Positions 40,663 to 45,430 of a stretch of 64,000 nt of DNA are shown piece after piece. The notes under the pieces are model-generated. The model saw nothing but the letters and a program-made list of their open reading frames with translations. It was not told the origin of the DNA and did no database searches. This stretch comes from Hoeflea sp. (lineage in GTDB: Bacteria > Pseudomonadota > Alphaproteobacteria > Rhizobiales > Rhizobiaceae). Location: the NCBI RefSeq assembly GCF_002733955.1, contig NZ_NVXQ01000002.1, positions 310,001-374,000 of the forward strand, given 5' to 3'. How positions within the stretch are numbered: position 1 is the first letter of the stretch; each line of letters starts with the position of its first letter. Position numbers and translations under genes: made by a program.

Positions 40663-41271
40663 TCAATAGAGCGGCTCTTCGTAAAGGGCTTTTCCGTCGA
40701 TCATGATGCGGGCGATCTGCGCATCGCCCTTGTCTGATATGCGCACGGCTACCGTCGTCCGCTGCTGGTTGCGGGCGGCTTCGATCTCCAGCCCCTCACC
40801 TTCCGGCACGTAGTAACGCTCGATCCCGAAACTGAGAGAAAGCTGGCCAGCGACGGCTTCCGAGGAACCGGAGCGGGTCCATCTGGTCGGATTGCTCCTG
40901 AGAAAGATCTCTCCAGGGGCGCGGTTGACCGGCGTGTTCAGGCTGACCGCCTTGACCACACCCAGACCGTCCTCGCCGTCATGCAGCGTCAACCAGAGCC
41001 TCACCGGCCCGTCATGCGCCGGCAGTTCGCCTTTAAACAGCGATCCATCGACATTGGAAATCTCCTCATAGCGCAACCTCACATAATCCCCGCGCATGAG
41101 ATCCCTGGGATCGACCGGCGCCGTCTTGAAGACGATTTCGGCACCATTCCGCAAGATCGCGGCACGATCGAGAATCATCCACCCGGGCAGTCCGATCAAC
41201 ACGCAGCCTGCAAGCAGAAGAGCCAGCACCGGGTGGATCTCGCGCCGCAACAATTGCCCGAGCGCCCTCAT
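40663..41271 (-). CDS. GDYXXLXY-domain protein
   Basis: A 202-residue protein with one N-terminal membrane helix (about 15-35) and a periplasmic domain holding the family motif GDYVRLRY at about 61-68. Such proteins are nearly always encoded next to DUF2157 membrane proteins, as here, with a four-base overlap (41268-41271), so the two probably form a membrane complex. The function of the pair is unknown. No lipobox or cleavage site is evident. Confidence 0.88.
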   Translation of the reverse strand: MRALGQLLRREIHPVLALLLAGCVLIGLPGWMILDRAAILRNGAEIVFKTAPVDPRDLMRGDYVRLRYEEISNVDGSLFKGELPAHDGPVRLWLTLHDGEDGLGVVKAVSLNTPVNRAPGEIFLRSNPTRWTRSGSSEAVAGQLSLSFGIERYYVPEGEGLEIEAARNQQRTTVAVRISDKGDAQIARIMIDGKALYEEPLY

Positions 41272-42383
41272 GTCTGAACCCCTTCTTTCTTGAACCGCTT
41301 TTCAAGACGCATCATCGCGTAGGCCATTGCCGCCAGAACCAGCCCCCCGAAAAACAGGAAGCCCGCGCTTCCGAGCAGCGACCCAAGCGTTTCCCCGACG
41401 ATGTAGATCGTCTCGCAGCTGAAGGCGAAATAGGCGAAGCGCCGAATCAACCGGTTCTCCCCACCCGCCACCACCAGCACGCCGACACTGGTTCCCAGCA
41501 CCAGCGCTGCAAATGCCATGATCCCGGGCAGGCTGGTGATCTCGGCATCTGCCTGTACCATCCCGAGACCGCCAAGCAGAAGCACGGCTCCATAGGCTGA
41601 CAGGGTCCCATGCCTTGAAAACGGAGCATCTGACTGCAGCGGCATCAGCGATCCGGCGGCAAACGCCACGGCACCGATTGCAGCCAGCAGGTAGCTCGGG
41701 TTCAGCTCTGTTGCCTCCTCGGCAATCCAGACCACCGCGCAAAGCAGCATGACTGCGCCAAGGTGCCCGGCCATGACCGACCGGGACCGCCACGCCGCTA
41801 CACCCACCGCGGCCGTGACAACCAGAGCCACGATATAGCCCGCCAGGTCAGGACCATGCCAGGAACTGAAGATTCCCAGCCCGTCCGACACGGTGAACAG
41901 GTAGCCCAGAGCCAGCAAACCTGCGCTGATCGCAGCCATAGGGGAAGAATACGTGACCGACACGACGAGCGCGCCGATGGTCCAGCTCAGCATGAAAGCC
42001 GCCTCGTCGCCGCTGAGATGATACATTTGCCCGACAAGGGCAACCCCGGCACCAAAACACAAAAGCGTAAACACCAGCAGTGCCTCGGCAATCCAGTGGG
42101 CGTTCCGGAGGACCGCAAATGTCGCTCCTGACAGCCCCCCTATTATAAAGACTAAGATCATCGCCACGCGCAGCGGGCGGGCGATCAACTCCCAGTTGGC
42201 CGCCACGAGCGCGATGACAGCCGCACCAAAAAGCACGGCAGCAAGAACGGCCAGCACGCTCGAGAGGTTCAAACCGGTGTGGCGACGGTCATGATCACGG
42301 AGCAAGGCAGCACCCTGGCCCGCATCCAGCAAACCGCCGCGAATCCACTCTTCAATCTCGCGCGACAAATATCTCCGCAGCAT
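41268..42383 (-). CDS. DUF2157 multi-pass membrane protein
   Basis: A 371-residue protein. The first 40 residues form a cytoplasmic DUF2157 segment (REIEEWIRGGLLD), followed by about eleven hydrophobic helices. It shares a four-base overlap with the GDYXXLXY gene downstream and surely works with it. No transporter motif is recognised. The gene begins its own operon; 270 bases upstream lie before the first DUF1127 gene, which is divergent. Confidence 0.85.
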   Translation of the reverse strand: MLRRYLSREIEEWIRGGLLDAGQGAALLRDHDRRHTGLNLSSVLAVLAAVLFGAAVIALVAANWELIARPLRVAMILVFIIGGLSGATFAVLRNAHWIAEALLVFTLLCFGAGVALVGQMYHLSGDEAAFMLSWTIGALVVSVTYSSPMAAISAGLLALGYLFTVSDGLGIFSSWHGPDLAGYIVALVVTAAVGVAAWRSRSVMAGHLGAVMLLCAVVWIAEEATELNPSYLLAAIGAVAFAAGSLMPLQSDAPFSRHGTLSAYGAVLLLGGLGMVQADAEITSLPGIMAFAALVLGTSVGVLVVAGGENRLIRRFAYFAFSCETIYIVGETLGSLLGSAGFLFFGGLVLAAMAYAMMRLEKRFKKEGVQT

Positions 42384-42559
42384 GATGCGATTCTTCCCTT
42401 GAACTGGTCTGAGTTGAGACTACATCAGCAGCCGACAAGGGCCAACGATGGCATAACAGGCACTTTGCCCCTCATCATCACGAAATTGCACAGCTATGAG
42501 GCAAACCGGGCCGATTCCCCGTCTAGCCATGCAATCTCGGAATAGCTTCCATGATTATA

Positions 42560-42594
42560 TTGCACTGCACAAATCGATTGAATGCCCCTATATT
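42560..42594 (+). promoter_or_regulatory. Conserved promoter-like element, copy 1
   Basis: TTGCACTGCACAA starts at 42560 and CCTATATT follows, with TATAT beginning 29 bases after the first T. The 13-base box has the T-N11-A spacing and TTG/CAA dyad typical of LysR-type regulator sites, and it overlaps the place of the -35 hexamer if TATATT is the -10. The same element with the same spacing precedes the other two DUF1127 genes. Confidence 0.65.
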
Positions 42595-42653
42595 CAAATC
42601 ATCGGAACGCCACGGTGGTGAGCCGAACAACAGCGGGACAGAGGATGACATCG

Positions 42654-42794
42654 ATGAAACTGATCAACTCCTTCGCCAGCTGGCGGAAATATCGCGAAAC
42701 ATGCGTCGAGCTGAACCGGCTTTCCGAACGCGAGTTGAGCGACATCGGCATGTCACGAAGCGATATCCCATTCGCTGCACGGCGCGCCCTGTAA
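42654..42794 (+). CDS. DUF1127 micro-protein, copy 1
   Basis: A 46-residue basic protein with the DUF1127 (YjiS-like) core: LNRLSERELSDIGMSRSDIPFAAR. The ATG at 42654 has AGAGG ending nine bases upstream; an ATG at 42645 is too close to it. DUF1127 proteins in Rhodobacter (CcaF1) bind RNA and affect sRNA processing; in Agrobacterium and Brucella they influence phosphate, fucose or stress traits. It is followed 13 bases after the stop codon by three tandem CCUCCUCCC hairpins, the same order as ccaF1-CcsR1-4. Confidence 0.9.
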   Translation: MKLINSFASWRKYRETCVELNRLSERELSDIGMSRSDIPFAARRAL

Positions 42795-42807
42795 GAAATT
42801 CAAGAAT

Positions 42808-42934
42808 TCGGAGCGGCCTCCTCCTCCTCCCAAATGCCGCTTCGATGTGACTGGTGTTCATCCTCCTCCCGAGCATCAGTCTCCCAAAATGACGCTCACC
42901 GGATCCTCCTCCCCCGGTGAGCGTTATTTTTTTG
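42808..42934 (+). ncRNA. Tandem CCUCCUCCC hairpin RNAs (cuckoo/CcsR-like)
   Basis: Three consecutive stem-loops follow the DUF1127 stop. Hairpin 1 (42808-42845): 10-bp stem, 18-base loop with a run of CCU repeats. Hairpin 2 (42849-42881): 11-bp stem with two G-U pairs, loop AUCCUCCUCCC. Hairpin 3 (42892-42924): perfect 11-bp stem, loop AUCCUCCUCCC, then seven T residues, so it is also the terminator. Each loop is an anti-Shine-Dalgarno sequence. In Rhodobacter sphaeroides such hairpins are cut out of a DUF1127 mRNA to give Hfq-dependent stress sRNAs. Whether they are separated here is inference. Confidence 0.82.
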
Positions 42935-43133
42935 TCCATTGCCCTGGTTGATCCTCCAGCAGCTGCGACGACATCGCTCCCCCACGCCAGATCCACATCA
43001 GACTACCTCGCCAGAGAAGCTTCTGTAGGCTTGTATCCGCAGGACCCCGCACCGCGACACATGCGATTCAGCCATACCTCGCAAGGGTTTGTTAAGTCGC
43101 ATTGCAGATTTCGCATGGCTCCTTTGCGATTTT

Positions 43134-43168
43134 TTGCACTGCACAAATCGATTGTAATCTCCTATATC
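43134..43168 (+). promoter_or_regulatory. Conserved promoter-like element, copy 2
   Basis: TTGCACTGCACAA starts at 43134 and the CCTATAT block follows, with TATAT 29 bases after the first T. The first 21 bases are identical to copy 1. It precedes the second DUF1127 gene by about 60 bases. Confidence 0.65.
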
Positions 43169-43227
43169 AGGATCAACGAAACGCGGCGCACTGATCACCA
43201 TCAGCGCCACATTGAAAGGAAAACACC

Positions 43228-43371
43228 ATGAACTTCCGTAAGGCTTACAAAGACTGGCGCGACTACCGCAACACCGTCAACGAACTGTCCCGCATGTCCG
43301 AACGCGAACTCAACGACCTCGGCATCTCCCGCGGCGACATCCCGTTCGTTGCTCGCCGTCCCGGCCAGTAA
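43228..43371 (+). CDS. DUF1127 micro-protein, copy 2
   Basis: A 47-residue protein too short for routine gene finding. It starts MNFRKAYKDWRDYR, and the DUF1127 core LSRMSERELNDLGISRGDIPF is clear and closer to copy 1 than copy 3 is. The ATG at 43228 has GAAAGGA about eight bases upstream. Unlike copy 1 it is followed not by CCUCCUCCC hairpins but by a normal terminator. Confidence 0.9.
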   Translation: MNFRKAYKDWRDYRNTVNELSRMSERELNDLGISRGDIPFVARRPGQ

Positions 43372-43388
43372 GAACTGAAGACCTCTGC

Positions 43389-43451
43389 CCGGTTCACCGA
43401 ACCGGACATTCAAAACGGCGCCCTGGCAACAGGGCGCTGTTTCTGTTTTGG
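43389..43451 (+). terminator. Tandem hairpins and terminator of DUF1127 copy 2
   Basis: First a 7-bp hairpin (CCGGTTC with GAACCGG), then a 9-bp stem (GGCGCCCTG with CAGGGCGCT, loop GCAA) followed by a T-rich run. Between here and copy 3 of the promoter element at 43640 nothing else is seen. Confidence 0.8.
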
Positions 43452-43639
43452 GCAATCATGCTGGACCCTGCTGCCGCCATGATCGCGCCCCGTCGCAATC
43501 GCTTTGATCGGGTTAGCAATCCCCGGCTCGCAATACCGGTAAACCGGCGATCCAGCGAGTGCCTGTTTTCTCGGCATCTTCAATGGTTGACGAAGCACTA
43601 ATCGAGCCATTCCGGCCGCGCATATCTGGGCTGCGATTA

Positions 43640-43674
43640 TTGCGCTGCACAATTGGGCGGCAAACGCCTATATG
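43640..43674 (+). promoter_or_regulatory. Conserved promoter-like element, copy 3
   Basis: TTGCGCTGCACAA starts at 43640 and CCTATAT follows at the same 29-base offset as in the other two copies, although the sequence between the two blocks differs. It precedes the third DUF1127 gene by about 65 bases. Conserved blocks with conserved spacing but a free spacer are what a real promoter would show. Confidence 0.65.
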
Positions 43675-43984: not shown

Positions 43985-45430
43985 ATGGACGTCATGACCA
44001 AGACCTCTCCTTCAAATTCCCCCATCCACGTCATCGGCGGCGGCCTCGCCGGCTCGGAAGCAGCCTGGCAGATCGCCCGCCGAGGCTTGCCGGTGATTCT
44101 GCATGAGATGCGCCCGGTGCGCGGAACCGAAGCCCACAAGACCGACAGCCTCGCTGAGCTGGTCTGCTCCAATTCCTTCCGTTCCGATGATGCGGAAAAC
44201 AATGCCGTGGGCGTCATTCACGCGGAAATGCGGCTTGCGGGTTCGCTGATCATGTCCTGCGCTGACAAGAACCAGGTCCCTGCCGGTGGCGCACTGGCCG
44301 TCGATCGCGAGGGATTTGCGCAGGCCGTGACCGACGCGATTGCCGCCGAGCCGCTGATCACCATTGCCCGCGAGGAAATCACCGGTCTGCCGCCAGCGGA
44401 ATGGGACCAGACCATCATCGCCACCGGCCCGTTGACCGCCCCTGGCCTGGCCGACGCCATCAGCACCGAAACCGGCCAGGACGCGCTGGCCTTCTTTGAT
44501 GCGATCGCCCCGATCATCCACACCGATTCGATCGACATGTCGATCTGCTGGTTCCAGTCGCGCTACGACAAGGTTGGCCCCGGCGGCACCGGCCGCGACT
44601 ACATCAACTGCCCGATGGACAAGGAGCAGTATGACGCCTTCATCGATGCGCTGATCGCCGGTGACACCACCGGGTTCAAGGAATGGGAAGGCACGCCCTA
44701 TTTCGATGGCTGCCTGCCGATCGAGATCATGGCCGAGCGCGGCCGCGAAACCCTGCGCCACGGGCCGATGAAGCCGATGGGCCTGACCAATGCGCACAAG
44801 CCCGACGAAAAGGCCTATGCCGTGGTGCAACTGCGCCAGGACAATGCGCTGGGCACGCTCTACAACATGGTCGGATTCCAGACCAAGCTGAAATATGGCG
44901 CCCAGGCCGAGATCATCCGCATGATCCCCGGGCTTCAGAATGCCGAATTCGCCCGGCTTGGCGGCCTGCACCGCAACACCTATCTCAATTCACCACTGCT
45001 TCTCGATGGCAAGCTGCAGCTCAAGAGCCGTCCGGGTCTGCGCTTTGCAGGCCAGATCACCGGCTGCGAGGGCTATGTCGAGAGCGCTGCCATGGGCCTG
45101 CTCGCAGGCCGCTTTGCCGCAGCCGAGCGGCTTGGCGAAGAGCTTGCCCCGCCGCCGCTGACATCCGCCTTTGGCGCGCTGCTCAACCACATCACCGGCG
45201 GTCATCTGGTCAGCCATGACGAGCCGGGCAAGCGCTCATTCCAGCCGATGAATGTCAACTTCGGACTGTTTCCGCCGCTCGAGCCTGGCGCCATCGTCAA
45301 GCCCGAGGGCGGCGGCCGTTTCCGCGGCAAGGACAAGGCCAAGGCAAAGAAGCAGGCGATGGCCCGCCGGGCTCTGGCGGATTTCGCGGCCTGGCTCGGC
45401 GTTTCCAGCGTTCAGCAGGCCGCCGAATAG
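43985..45430 (+). CDS. trmFO: Methylenetetrahydrofolate-tRNA-(uracil-5-)-methyltransferase TrmFO
   Basis: A 481-residue GidA-related flavoprotein. The FAD-binding motif [13 protein letters not shown] is at about 16-28. Conserved cysteine motifs are [10 protein letters not shown] and [10 protein letters not shown]. It makes ribothymidine at position 54 of tRNA using methylenetetrahydrofolate and FADH2. The start is uncertain between the ATGs at 43985 and 43994; both ribosome sites are weak. The C-terminal 20 residues are Ala and Lys-rich as in other rhizobial copies. Confidence 0.93.

Follow-up and report, generated by a model that had tools for sequence, protein, structure and literature searches.

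The locus described here resembles several published systems. NfeR1 of Sinorhizobium meliloti (SmrC14, SmelC397) is a 123-nt, Hfq-independent RNA with three anti-Shine-Dalgarno hairpins, which is activated by LsrB, repressed by NtrC and silences ntrBC (PMC10746234). It silences mRNAs through CCUCCUCCC loop motifs, and transport proteins are among its published targets. In Rhodobacter sphaeroides, a DUF1127 ORF, ccaF1, is followed by the anti-Shine-Dalgarno hairpins of CcsR1-4, under an RpoHI/RpoHII promoter (PMC10253847). Short DUF1127 proteins beside CcsR-like sRNAs are frequent in alphaproteobacteria, a layout labelled the CIN1 locus (PMC10253847), and one family has been proposed for the multi-hairpin CCUCCUCCC RNAs of Rhizobiales, which were compared with a Rhodobacter RNA (PMC3927594, section 2.7).

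DUF1127 genes and anti-Shine-Dalgarno sRNAs also come together in the VtlR/LsrB regulon (Agrobacterium abcR1, atu1667 and vrsA; three DUF1127 genes and abcR2 in Brucella), under one LysR regulator and with a motif similar to the one we describe below. VtlR binds and activates the atu1667 promoter in Agrobacterium, where atu1667 is an orthologue of Brucella DUF1127 genes, and Brucella VtlR regulates three DUF1127 genes and AbcR2 (PMC7486931, PMC12595884). The paper naming atu1667 leaves open whether it is protein-coding or an sRNA and, in contrast to what we find here, its available text mentions no αr14 sRNA for atu1667. Our literature search, which covered few subscription papers, turned up no paper naming both NfeR1 and DUF1127.

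A DUF1127 gene followed by a three-loop αr14 sRNA

We analyzed a 64,000-nt stretch (the window) of a 4.86 Mb Hoeflea genome, whose relatives at the locus are Hoeflea; among 14 named records that share a promoter pattern described below, the longest aligned piece came from H. halophila KCTC 23107 (86.6% identity over 4,590 bases). The features of the locus are collected in Table 1. A short DUF1127 gene stands directly 5' of an anti-Shine-Dalgarno hairpin RNA, the arrangement by which PMC10253847 defines the CIN1/cuckoo layout, and only 8 nt separate its stop codon from the start of the Rfam match.

Table 1 Features of the locus in the window
Feature	Coordinates	Strand	Details
DUF2157 membrane protein gene, recurrent upstream neighbour	41268-42383	-	PF09925; synteny
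Box A, DUF1127 gene 1, degenerate LsrB/VtlR-type	42530-42552	+	TGCA-N6-GAAT-N3-TT-N3-T; 2 mismatches to published arms
Box B, DUF1127 gene 1	42560-42572	+	TTGCACTGCACAA, T-N11-A type, overlapping the -35 region
Presumed -10 element CTATAT	42588-42593	+	transcription start inferred near 42600
DUF1127 gene 1, 46 aa	42654-42794	+	PF06568, E 3.6e-14
A/U-rich linker, candidate endonuclease (RNase E) site	42795-42809	+	AAUUC at 42797-42801 and 42805-42809
αr14 (NfeR1-family) sRNA, Rfam RF02344	42803-42929	+	cmscan; 3' end probably 42933
Hairpin 1	42808-42845	+	10 bp; CCUCCUCCC loop 42823-42831
Hairpin 2	42849-42881	+	11 bp; CCUCCUCCC loop 42862-42870; covariation
Hairpin 3, Rho-independent terminator	42886-42933	+	CCUCCUCCC loop 42905-42913; U7 42927-42933; covariation
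Box A, DUF1127 gene 2	43103-43125	+	1 mismatch
Box B, DUF1127 gene 2	43134-43146	+	exact
DUF1127 gene 2, 47 aa	43228-43371	+	PF06568, E 1.3e-17
Box A, DUF1127 gene 3	43610-43632	+	2 mismatches in TGCA arm; GCAT-N3-TG-N3-T exact
Box B, DUF1127 gene 3	43640-43652	+	1 mismatch
DUF1127 gene 3, 48 aa	43738-43884	+	PF06568, E 9.5e-12
trmFO-type gene (GIDA family), recurrent downstream neighbour	43985-45430	+	PF01134, E 5.2e-100; synteny

The covariance-model search (cmscan) matched the RNA to αr14 (RF02344) over the full length of the model (1-123) at 99.1 bits, against a gathering cut-off of 58.8. The CcsR1 model (RF02791), which covers two hairpins, gave 31.3 bits against a cut-off of 65.3. We rejected CcsR membership because this score falls under its cut-off, while αr14 stands 40 bits over its own; matches to 6C, ar7 and Pseudomon-1 were also rejected, being under their cut-offs and overlapping αr14. 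The RNA 3' of DUF1127 gene 1 is one three-loop αr14 sRNA, of the family of S. meliloti NfeR1. The preliminary description of this DNA, which had proposed such a search, was correct in content and coordinates for the 46-codon DUF1127 gene, the three stem-loops with CCUCCUCCC loops and the terminator in the last of them, and its cuckoo-type reading of the sRNA agrees with the published CIN1 layout. The CcsR-like name that it gave was near but not exact, and its three CcsR copies give way to a single αr14 sRNA. It had also called rhizobial versions far less studied, which is contradicted by the promoter, target and nodulation data in print for NfeR1 (PMC10746234).

The window sRNA shares with NfeR1 its Rfam family, the three hairpins with CCUCCUCCC loops, variable stems, a terminator in hairpin 3, a candidate LTTR-type box before the -10 element and a DUF1127 gene as neighbour (in S. 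meliloti, this last point follows from a 21-base site discussed below). It differs in that NfeR1 is free-standing and has its own promoter, whereas the window sRNA follows the DUF1127 ORF in one predicted transcript. With ccaF1-CcsR1-4 it has in common the DUF1127 ORF immediately before the hairpins and a predicted origin as a 3'UTR-derived sRNA; CcaF1 has 71 aa compared with 46 aa in the window.

The DUF1127 ORF at the Hoeflea locus is under purifying selection. Comparing gene 1 with seven Hoeflea orthologues, we found dN below dS in all seven cases (dN 0.010-0.064, dS 0.135-0.508), and across the eight sequences the variable sites in the 46 codons were distributed 7/2/17 over the three codon positions. 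Downstream, a strong terminator-like hairpin lies 3' of DUF1127 gene 2 (43413-43442); DUF1127 genes 2 and 3 therefore appear to be separate units, each with its own boxes.

The loops are kept while the stems drift

The minimum free energy of the sRNA is -58.5 kcal/mol, compared with -29.45 (sd 3.05) for shuffled sequences (z = -9.5; none of 200 shuffles was as good). In this fold, the stem of hairpin 3 (42886-42930) comprises 17 bp, including A-U pairs with the U tract, around a core of about 12 bp.

We collected 117 three-loop units from the window and related genomes and scored a motif as lying in a loop when at least 7 of its 9 nt were unpaired inside a stem of at least 6 bp. This was the case in 114, 116 and 117 of the 117 units for hairpins 1, 2 and 3, respectively, compared with 114, 121 and 180 of 351 flank-shuffled controls under the same criterion. 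The 5' arms of these hairpins came in 99, 100 and 49 distinct versions. In an alignment of 45 ORF-linked units (A1), the RNAalifold consensus drew hairpins 2 and 3; hairpin 1 was absent from the consensus of these 45 rows. Covariation was pronounced in the two hairpins drawn, with 192 cells changed on both sides of a pair against 57.8 in shuffles (none of 500 as high) and changes on both sides in 21 of 23 pairs; slid controls were far lower. The CCUCCUCCC loops are kept while the stems drift with compensation. Loss of the loops under drifting stems, which had been named in advance as an outcome that would speak against the preliminary description, did not occur.

This pattern bears on a reading in which the three hairpins are a mere 3'UTR stabiliser and terminator that takes no action in trans. 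A triple hairpin with a terminator would indeed protect the 3' end of the mRNA. A stabiliser, however, has no need of a fixed loop sequence on drifting stems, and stand-alone versions of the RNA exist, among them NfeR1, which silences mRNAs through these very motifs. We consider this reading very improbable.

DUF1127 linkage recurs across the order

To see how common the layout is, we surveyed 160 stretches around αr14 matches, 130 of them from the window's family (f1; among the matches listed) and 30 from other families of the order. Adding the window and a second locus of its genome (L002) gave 162 records, and 152 of them contained arrays with at least two loop motifs, 186 in total. In at least 59 of these 186, the end of a DUF1127 ORF lies no more than 60 nt before the first loop motif (45/160 in the window's family and 14/26 in other families), a lower bound since ORFs longer than 150 aa were excluded, as happened to DUF1127 reading frames in L091 and L163. 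With only five DUF1127 matches in the 4.86 Mb of the window's own genome, linkage at this frequency is not due to chance. At E ≤0.001, αr14 itself was detected in 116 of 121 genomes of the window's family (108 over the cut-off) and in 103 of 297 genomes sampled from the order (55 over the cut-off).

The survey also brought up some further RNAs. Arrays of nine or eight CCTCCTCCC loop motifs lie near a DUF1127 gene in three records from other families of the order (L172, L163 and L179). In the window's own genome, a second, weaker αr14-like RNA with two loop motifs scored 38.1 bits, under the cut-off (L002:1501-1645; G000:C35:335523-335667). A TTGCAATGCAGCAT..CATATA stretch lies immediately 5' of it; no DUF1127 ORF was found upstream, and the ORF on its 5' side resembles a sugar ABC-transporter ATPase (putative). 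We also ran Rfam over sites of the genome that differ from TGCACTGCACAA by no more than one base (17 of the 18 loci L010-L027, L021 being omitted because it overlaps L020, and L014 being the site of DUF1127 gene 3 in the window), and the only matches above cut-off at these places were the window's αr14 and two tRNAs.

LsrB/VtlR-like boxes precede the DUF1127 genes

A consensus scan of 42000-43600 returned a single sigma70-like site, which ends at 42594, overlaps box B and precedes DUF1127 gene 1; within DUF1127 ORF 1 and the linker the scan, of a kind that misses promoters, found no promoter-like site. The published LsrB consensus arms are TGCA-N6-GCAT and GCAT-N3-TG-N3-T (PMC8844928, PMC10746234), and each of the window's three DUF1127 genes is preceded by LsrB/VtlR-like boxes, the set at gene 1 being degenerate. 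At up to two mismatches, the window contains 20 matches to box A where 23.4 would be expected by chance, and we rejected box A by itself as a signal; box B alone was found three times, with 1.8 expected. Box A stands 30-31 nt before box B at all three genes, for which we calculated, post hoc, a rough chance of 4e-11. Only this position before the three box B copies speaks for box A as a signal in the window.

In the wider set, GCAT-N3-TG-N3-T occurs upstream of 21 of the 59 αr14-linked DUF1127 ORFs (0.6 in shuffles) and TGCA-N6-GCAT upstream of 25 (0.67 in shuffles). For 87 arrays with no DUF1127 ORF found upstream, the corresponding numbers were 37 (2.2 in shuffles) and 19 (0.9). In the linked set, the distance from the GCAT box to a -10-like hexamer is exactly 48 nt in 17 of 21 cases. 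This spacing fits the position of the LsrB site of nfeR1 (-72 to -57), a gene transcribed from its own sigma70 promoter (PMC10746234). The VtlR motif of PMC12595884 was found with at most two mismatches in 13 of the 59 linked upstream regions, compared with about 0.0 in shuffles at two mismatches and none at fewer. Against this motif, the Brucella VtlR 15-mer CAATGCAGCCATGCA, the upstream regions of DUF1127 genes 1, 2 and 3 in the window show 4, 3 and 5 mismatches, of which only 3 is rare in shuffles (0.3%).

The pattern TGCAN6GCATN3TN4TG, which we chose with the abcR and gene 2 sites already in view, matches exactly at three places of the window's own genome: the promoters of the two abcR genes and that of DUF1127 gene 2. 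With one mismatch there are 59 further places, gene 1 included, for a total of 62 against 16 with the reversed pattern. A LysR gene adjoins the abcR pair, and none of the best 25 of 55 NCBIfam equivalog models exceeded its cut-off for the encoded protein. We take this protein to be a putative LsrB, from its place beside abcR. Taken together, LsrB control of the DUF1127-αr14 unit is predicted and likely. As for the abcR pair itself, these are two tandem αr15/AbcR sRNAs (G000:C2:207865-208283; L248 and L249), each with an exact TGCA-N6-GCAT-N3-TG-N3-T box, beside the LysR gene.

Two other readings of the transcription unit were weighed against these results. According to the first, the sRNA is transcribed from its own promoter inside the DUF1127 ORF, as NfeR1 is, and the DUF1127 gene is a mere neighbour. 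Published NfeR1 has both a sigma70 promoter of its own and an LsrB box, and 36 of the 186 surveyed units carry a loosened LsrB-like box at a distance that would fit an sRNA start. Yet no promoter-like site was detected in the ORF or the linker by a consensus scan, which can miss promoters, and both the 8 nt between stop codon and Rfam start and the linkage in at least 59 of 186 arrays, beyond chance, argue for a single unit. We therefore regard a separate promoter at this locus as unlikely.

According to the second, this is a CcsR-type locus in the narrow sense, with an RpoH promoter responding to heat or oxidative stress and several CcsR copies matured with the DUF1127 protein. Gene order and loop motif are indeed those of ccaF1-CcsR1-4 (PMC10253847, PMC8625941), the CcsR1 model gives its 31.3-bit match, and CCTATAT would also fit the RpoH1 -10 consensus in PMC8844928. 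Against this, the match stays under the CcsR1 cut-off while αr14 is far over its own, and the promoter resembles those of LsrB/VtlR, whereas ccaF1 has an RpoHI/RpoHII promoter. We consider this reading improbable.

An A/U-rich linker and predicted targets

We next examined the linker between the ORF and the sRNA. Units were classed as ORF-linked when an ORF lay within 110 nt and as having a predicted start of their own when a loosened box A lay at a suitable place. An AAUU(U)C motif at -34 to -9 before the first loop motif was found in 32 of 68 ORF-linked units and 13 of 17 units with a leader, but in only 1 of 36 units with a predicted start of their own; it was found in 9 of 31 inner tandem units and 8 of 34 unclassified ones. 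Units that must be cut out thus carry it in 45 of 85 cases compared with 1 of 36 for own-promoter units (Fisher 2.5e-8), a comparison in which the motif was counted after it had been seen and the units share ancestry and are not independent. The AAUU(U)C motif is consistent with processing by RNase E. We name this enzyme as the candidate because it matures CcsR from the ccaF1 mRNA and prefers A/U-rich RNA (PMC8625941, PMC10253847).

Folding the whole predicted precursor hinted at a possible additional level of control. In its minimum-energy fold, hairpin 2 is absent and the second loop motif (42862-42870) is engaged with 42635-42644, immediately 5' of the DUF1127 start codon; loops 1 and 3 stay open. 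Because this segment belongs to the ribosome-site region of DUF1127 gene 1, the αr14 sRNA might repress its own host mRNA through this anti-Shine-Dalgarno motif.

For targets in trans, we considered the full 9-nt loop complement, GGGAGGAGG, which stands 3-9 nt before an ATG at six sites of the genome (none for the reversed-pattern control). Long ORFs of 438, 383 and at least 501 aa start at three of these sites and encode an SBP_bac_1 solute-binding protein, a DctP solute-binding protein and a GMC oxidoreductase, and the other three open ORFs of at most 96 aa; the set is a small sample. A wider pattern, GGGAGGA + ATGA, with 67 places, was set aside as ordinary Shine-Dalgarno sequence.

One promoter with and without the reading frame

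The 34-nt pattern TTGCACTGCACAAATCGATTN6CCCTATAT, which spans the promoter, was found in the 14 named records mentioned above: seven Hoeflea, six Ensifer and one Rhizobiales bacterium with the Ensifer layout. A DUF1127 ORF lies between this promoter and αr14 in all seven Hoeflea records and in the window; between the same two elements, none was found in the seven Ensifer-type records, which have a leader only. In the latter, 141-156 nt separate the start of box B from the first loop motif, and 284-285 nt further on comes another loop array.

The surroundings recur as well. Of the 160 stretches, which included about 1 kb of flank, 69 contain trmFO, DUF2157 or the GDYXXLXY gene next to it. Forty loci, mostly chosen for their trmFO/DUF2157 neighbourhood, were re-examined with longer flanks; with the window, trmFO is present in 39 of the 41 loci and DUF2157 upstream in 19 of 41.

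We used TrmFO to place the two arrangements on a tree of 39 rows, 20 of them ORF-linked and 19 not. Rows were assigned manually. An additional unit in which the ORF is missing or broken occurs in each of L209, L210 and L211; in L225, ORF and loops are 150 nt apart; and L227 (f16) carries a DUF1127 gene but lacks an exact loop array. The ORF label required three changes on the tree, compared with a mean of 13.5 when labels were shuffled (none of 500 as low). Sixteen ORF-less rows form one supported branch (95/98), beside ORF-linked members of the family, and both rows of f43, the family nearest the window's on this tree, and L202 are separately ORF-less. Rows of the families f11, f16, f41 and f44 were scored ORF-linked. 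The base of f1 is unresolved and the root is a midpoint root, so the direction of change rests on these other families.

A possible intermediate is preserved in L209. In bases 801-1120 (trmFO strand), the C-terminal half of a DUF1127-like protein lies between the box B promoter and the first αr14, and no in-frame ATG, GTG or TTG was found before it. This remnant is an apparent halfway stage of ORF loss, and together with the TrmFO tree it favours loss. Most likely, then, the ORF-linked order is the older arrangement at the nfeR1/trmFO locus, and the Ensifer-type stand-alone form lost the ORF and kept promoter and sRNA.

The opposite direction was also considered, in which the Hoeflea-type order is derived: a deletion would have brought a DUF1127-αr14 unit under the promoter of an ORF-less αr14 unit lying upstream of it, and the ORF would be a gain rather than a loss. 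The parts that such a fusion needs are present in L210 and L211, where a unit without an ORF precedes one with DUF1127 and αr14, and the unresolved base of the window's family and the ORF-less f43 would both allow it. However, the sequence flanking the window sRNA on its 5' side, GAATTCGGAGCGGC, finds its match in the first unit, which lacks an ORF, of L210 and some Ensifer records, and not in the second unit of L210 or L211. The ORF-linked rows of f11, f41 and f44 near trmFO and the start-less remnant of L209 likewise argue against a gain. We regard this scenario as possible, if doubtful.

Loss of the ORF also offers a reading of the S. meliloti locus. SmrC14 has been placed between SMc02051 and tig (PMC2780559), and a predicted second unit, sm7' (214 nt, 1667983-1667769), awaits detection (PMC2573895). 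A 21-base SMc02051 site (PMC12542648) occurs exactly in L193, between the second αr14 array and the next DUF1127 gene. From these coordinates we infer that NfeR1 corresponds to the second αr14 of an L193-type locus and sm7' to the first, ORF-less one. As predicted, sm7' lies just upstream of SmrC14, where its place and length fit the leader-αr14 arrangement without an ORF seen at Ensifer loci. In view of the TrmFO tree and the L209 remnant, the NfeR1 locus probably descends from the 3'UTR of a DUF1127 mRNA.

Discussion

We consider it probable that the window locus is one CIN1/cuckoo-type transcription unit, in the older arrangement at nfeR1/trmFO. A promoter with LysR-type boxes, probably for LsrB/VtlR, would give a single mRNA with the 46-aa DUF1127 reading frame first and an αr14 sRNA, some 127 nt long, at its 3' end. 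Endonuclease cleavage of the A/U-rich linker at AAUUC, most likely by RNase E, would free the sRNA, whose third hairpin is the terminator; the DUF1127 protein may have a role in this maturation, as the preliminary description suggested. The three identical CCUCCUCCC loops would then pair with purine-rich Shine-Dalgarno regions of selected mRNAs and block their translation, with mRNAs for periplasmic substrate-binding proteins probably among the targets. Family membership, the fold with its compensatory changes, purifying selection on the ORF, linkage and the promoter motif are computed results.

Several observations count against this model. NfeR1 works in S. meliloti with no linked DUF1127 ORF, f43 is ORF-less in both its rows, and L209, L210 and L211, although scored as ORF-linked, each hold a further unit in which the ORF is missing or broken. 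The window's match to the VtlR 15-mer is weak, box A of gene 1 has two mismatches, and box A taken alone does not exceed chance. The second loop motif is paired in the fold of the whole precursor. Elsewhere, DUF1127 proteins are reported to act by protein contacts (PMC12501420). As NfeR1 is Hfq-independent, Hfq co-immunoprecipitation at the window locus could be negative.

For the family as a whole, we tentatively propose, as close to an even call, that the stand-alone NfeR1-type sRNA of the trmFO locus began as the 3'UTR of a DUF1127 mRNA and was freed as the reading frame eroded. A single LTTR promoter (box A, box B, CTATAT) would have outlasted the ORF, which would have disappeared at least once (Ensifer-type clade), possibly as many as three times, with the L209 remnant caught midway. 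The small protein and its anti-Shine-Dalgarno sRNA would originally have been controlled as a pair by LsrB/VtlR, S. meliloti sm7' would be an unrecognized ORF-less descendant, and atu1667 is predicted to be both protein and sRNA.

The layout of a DUF1127 gene with a cuckoo RNA has already been published as the CIN1 locus, and the window locus is otherwise an ordinary member of its kind. Its interest lies in connecting the work on NfeR1 and LsrB in rhizobia with that on CcaF1 and CcsR in Rhodobacter, and the point left open in print, whether atu1667 is a protein or an sRNA, becomes directly testable. The origins of new trans-acting sRNAs are rarely caught in sequence. Here, a like promoter and sRNA are found near the same genes with an ORF (Hoeflea), with a decayed ORF (L209) and without an ORF (Ensifer-type), and the window locus looks like the older, protein-linked form of an sRNA that stands alone in nitrogen-fixing relatives.
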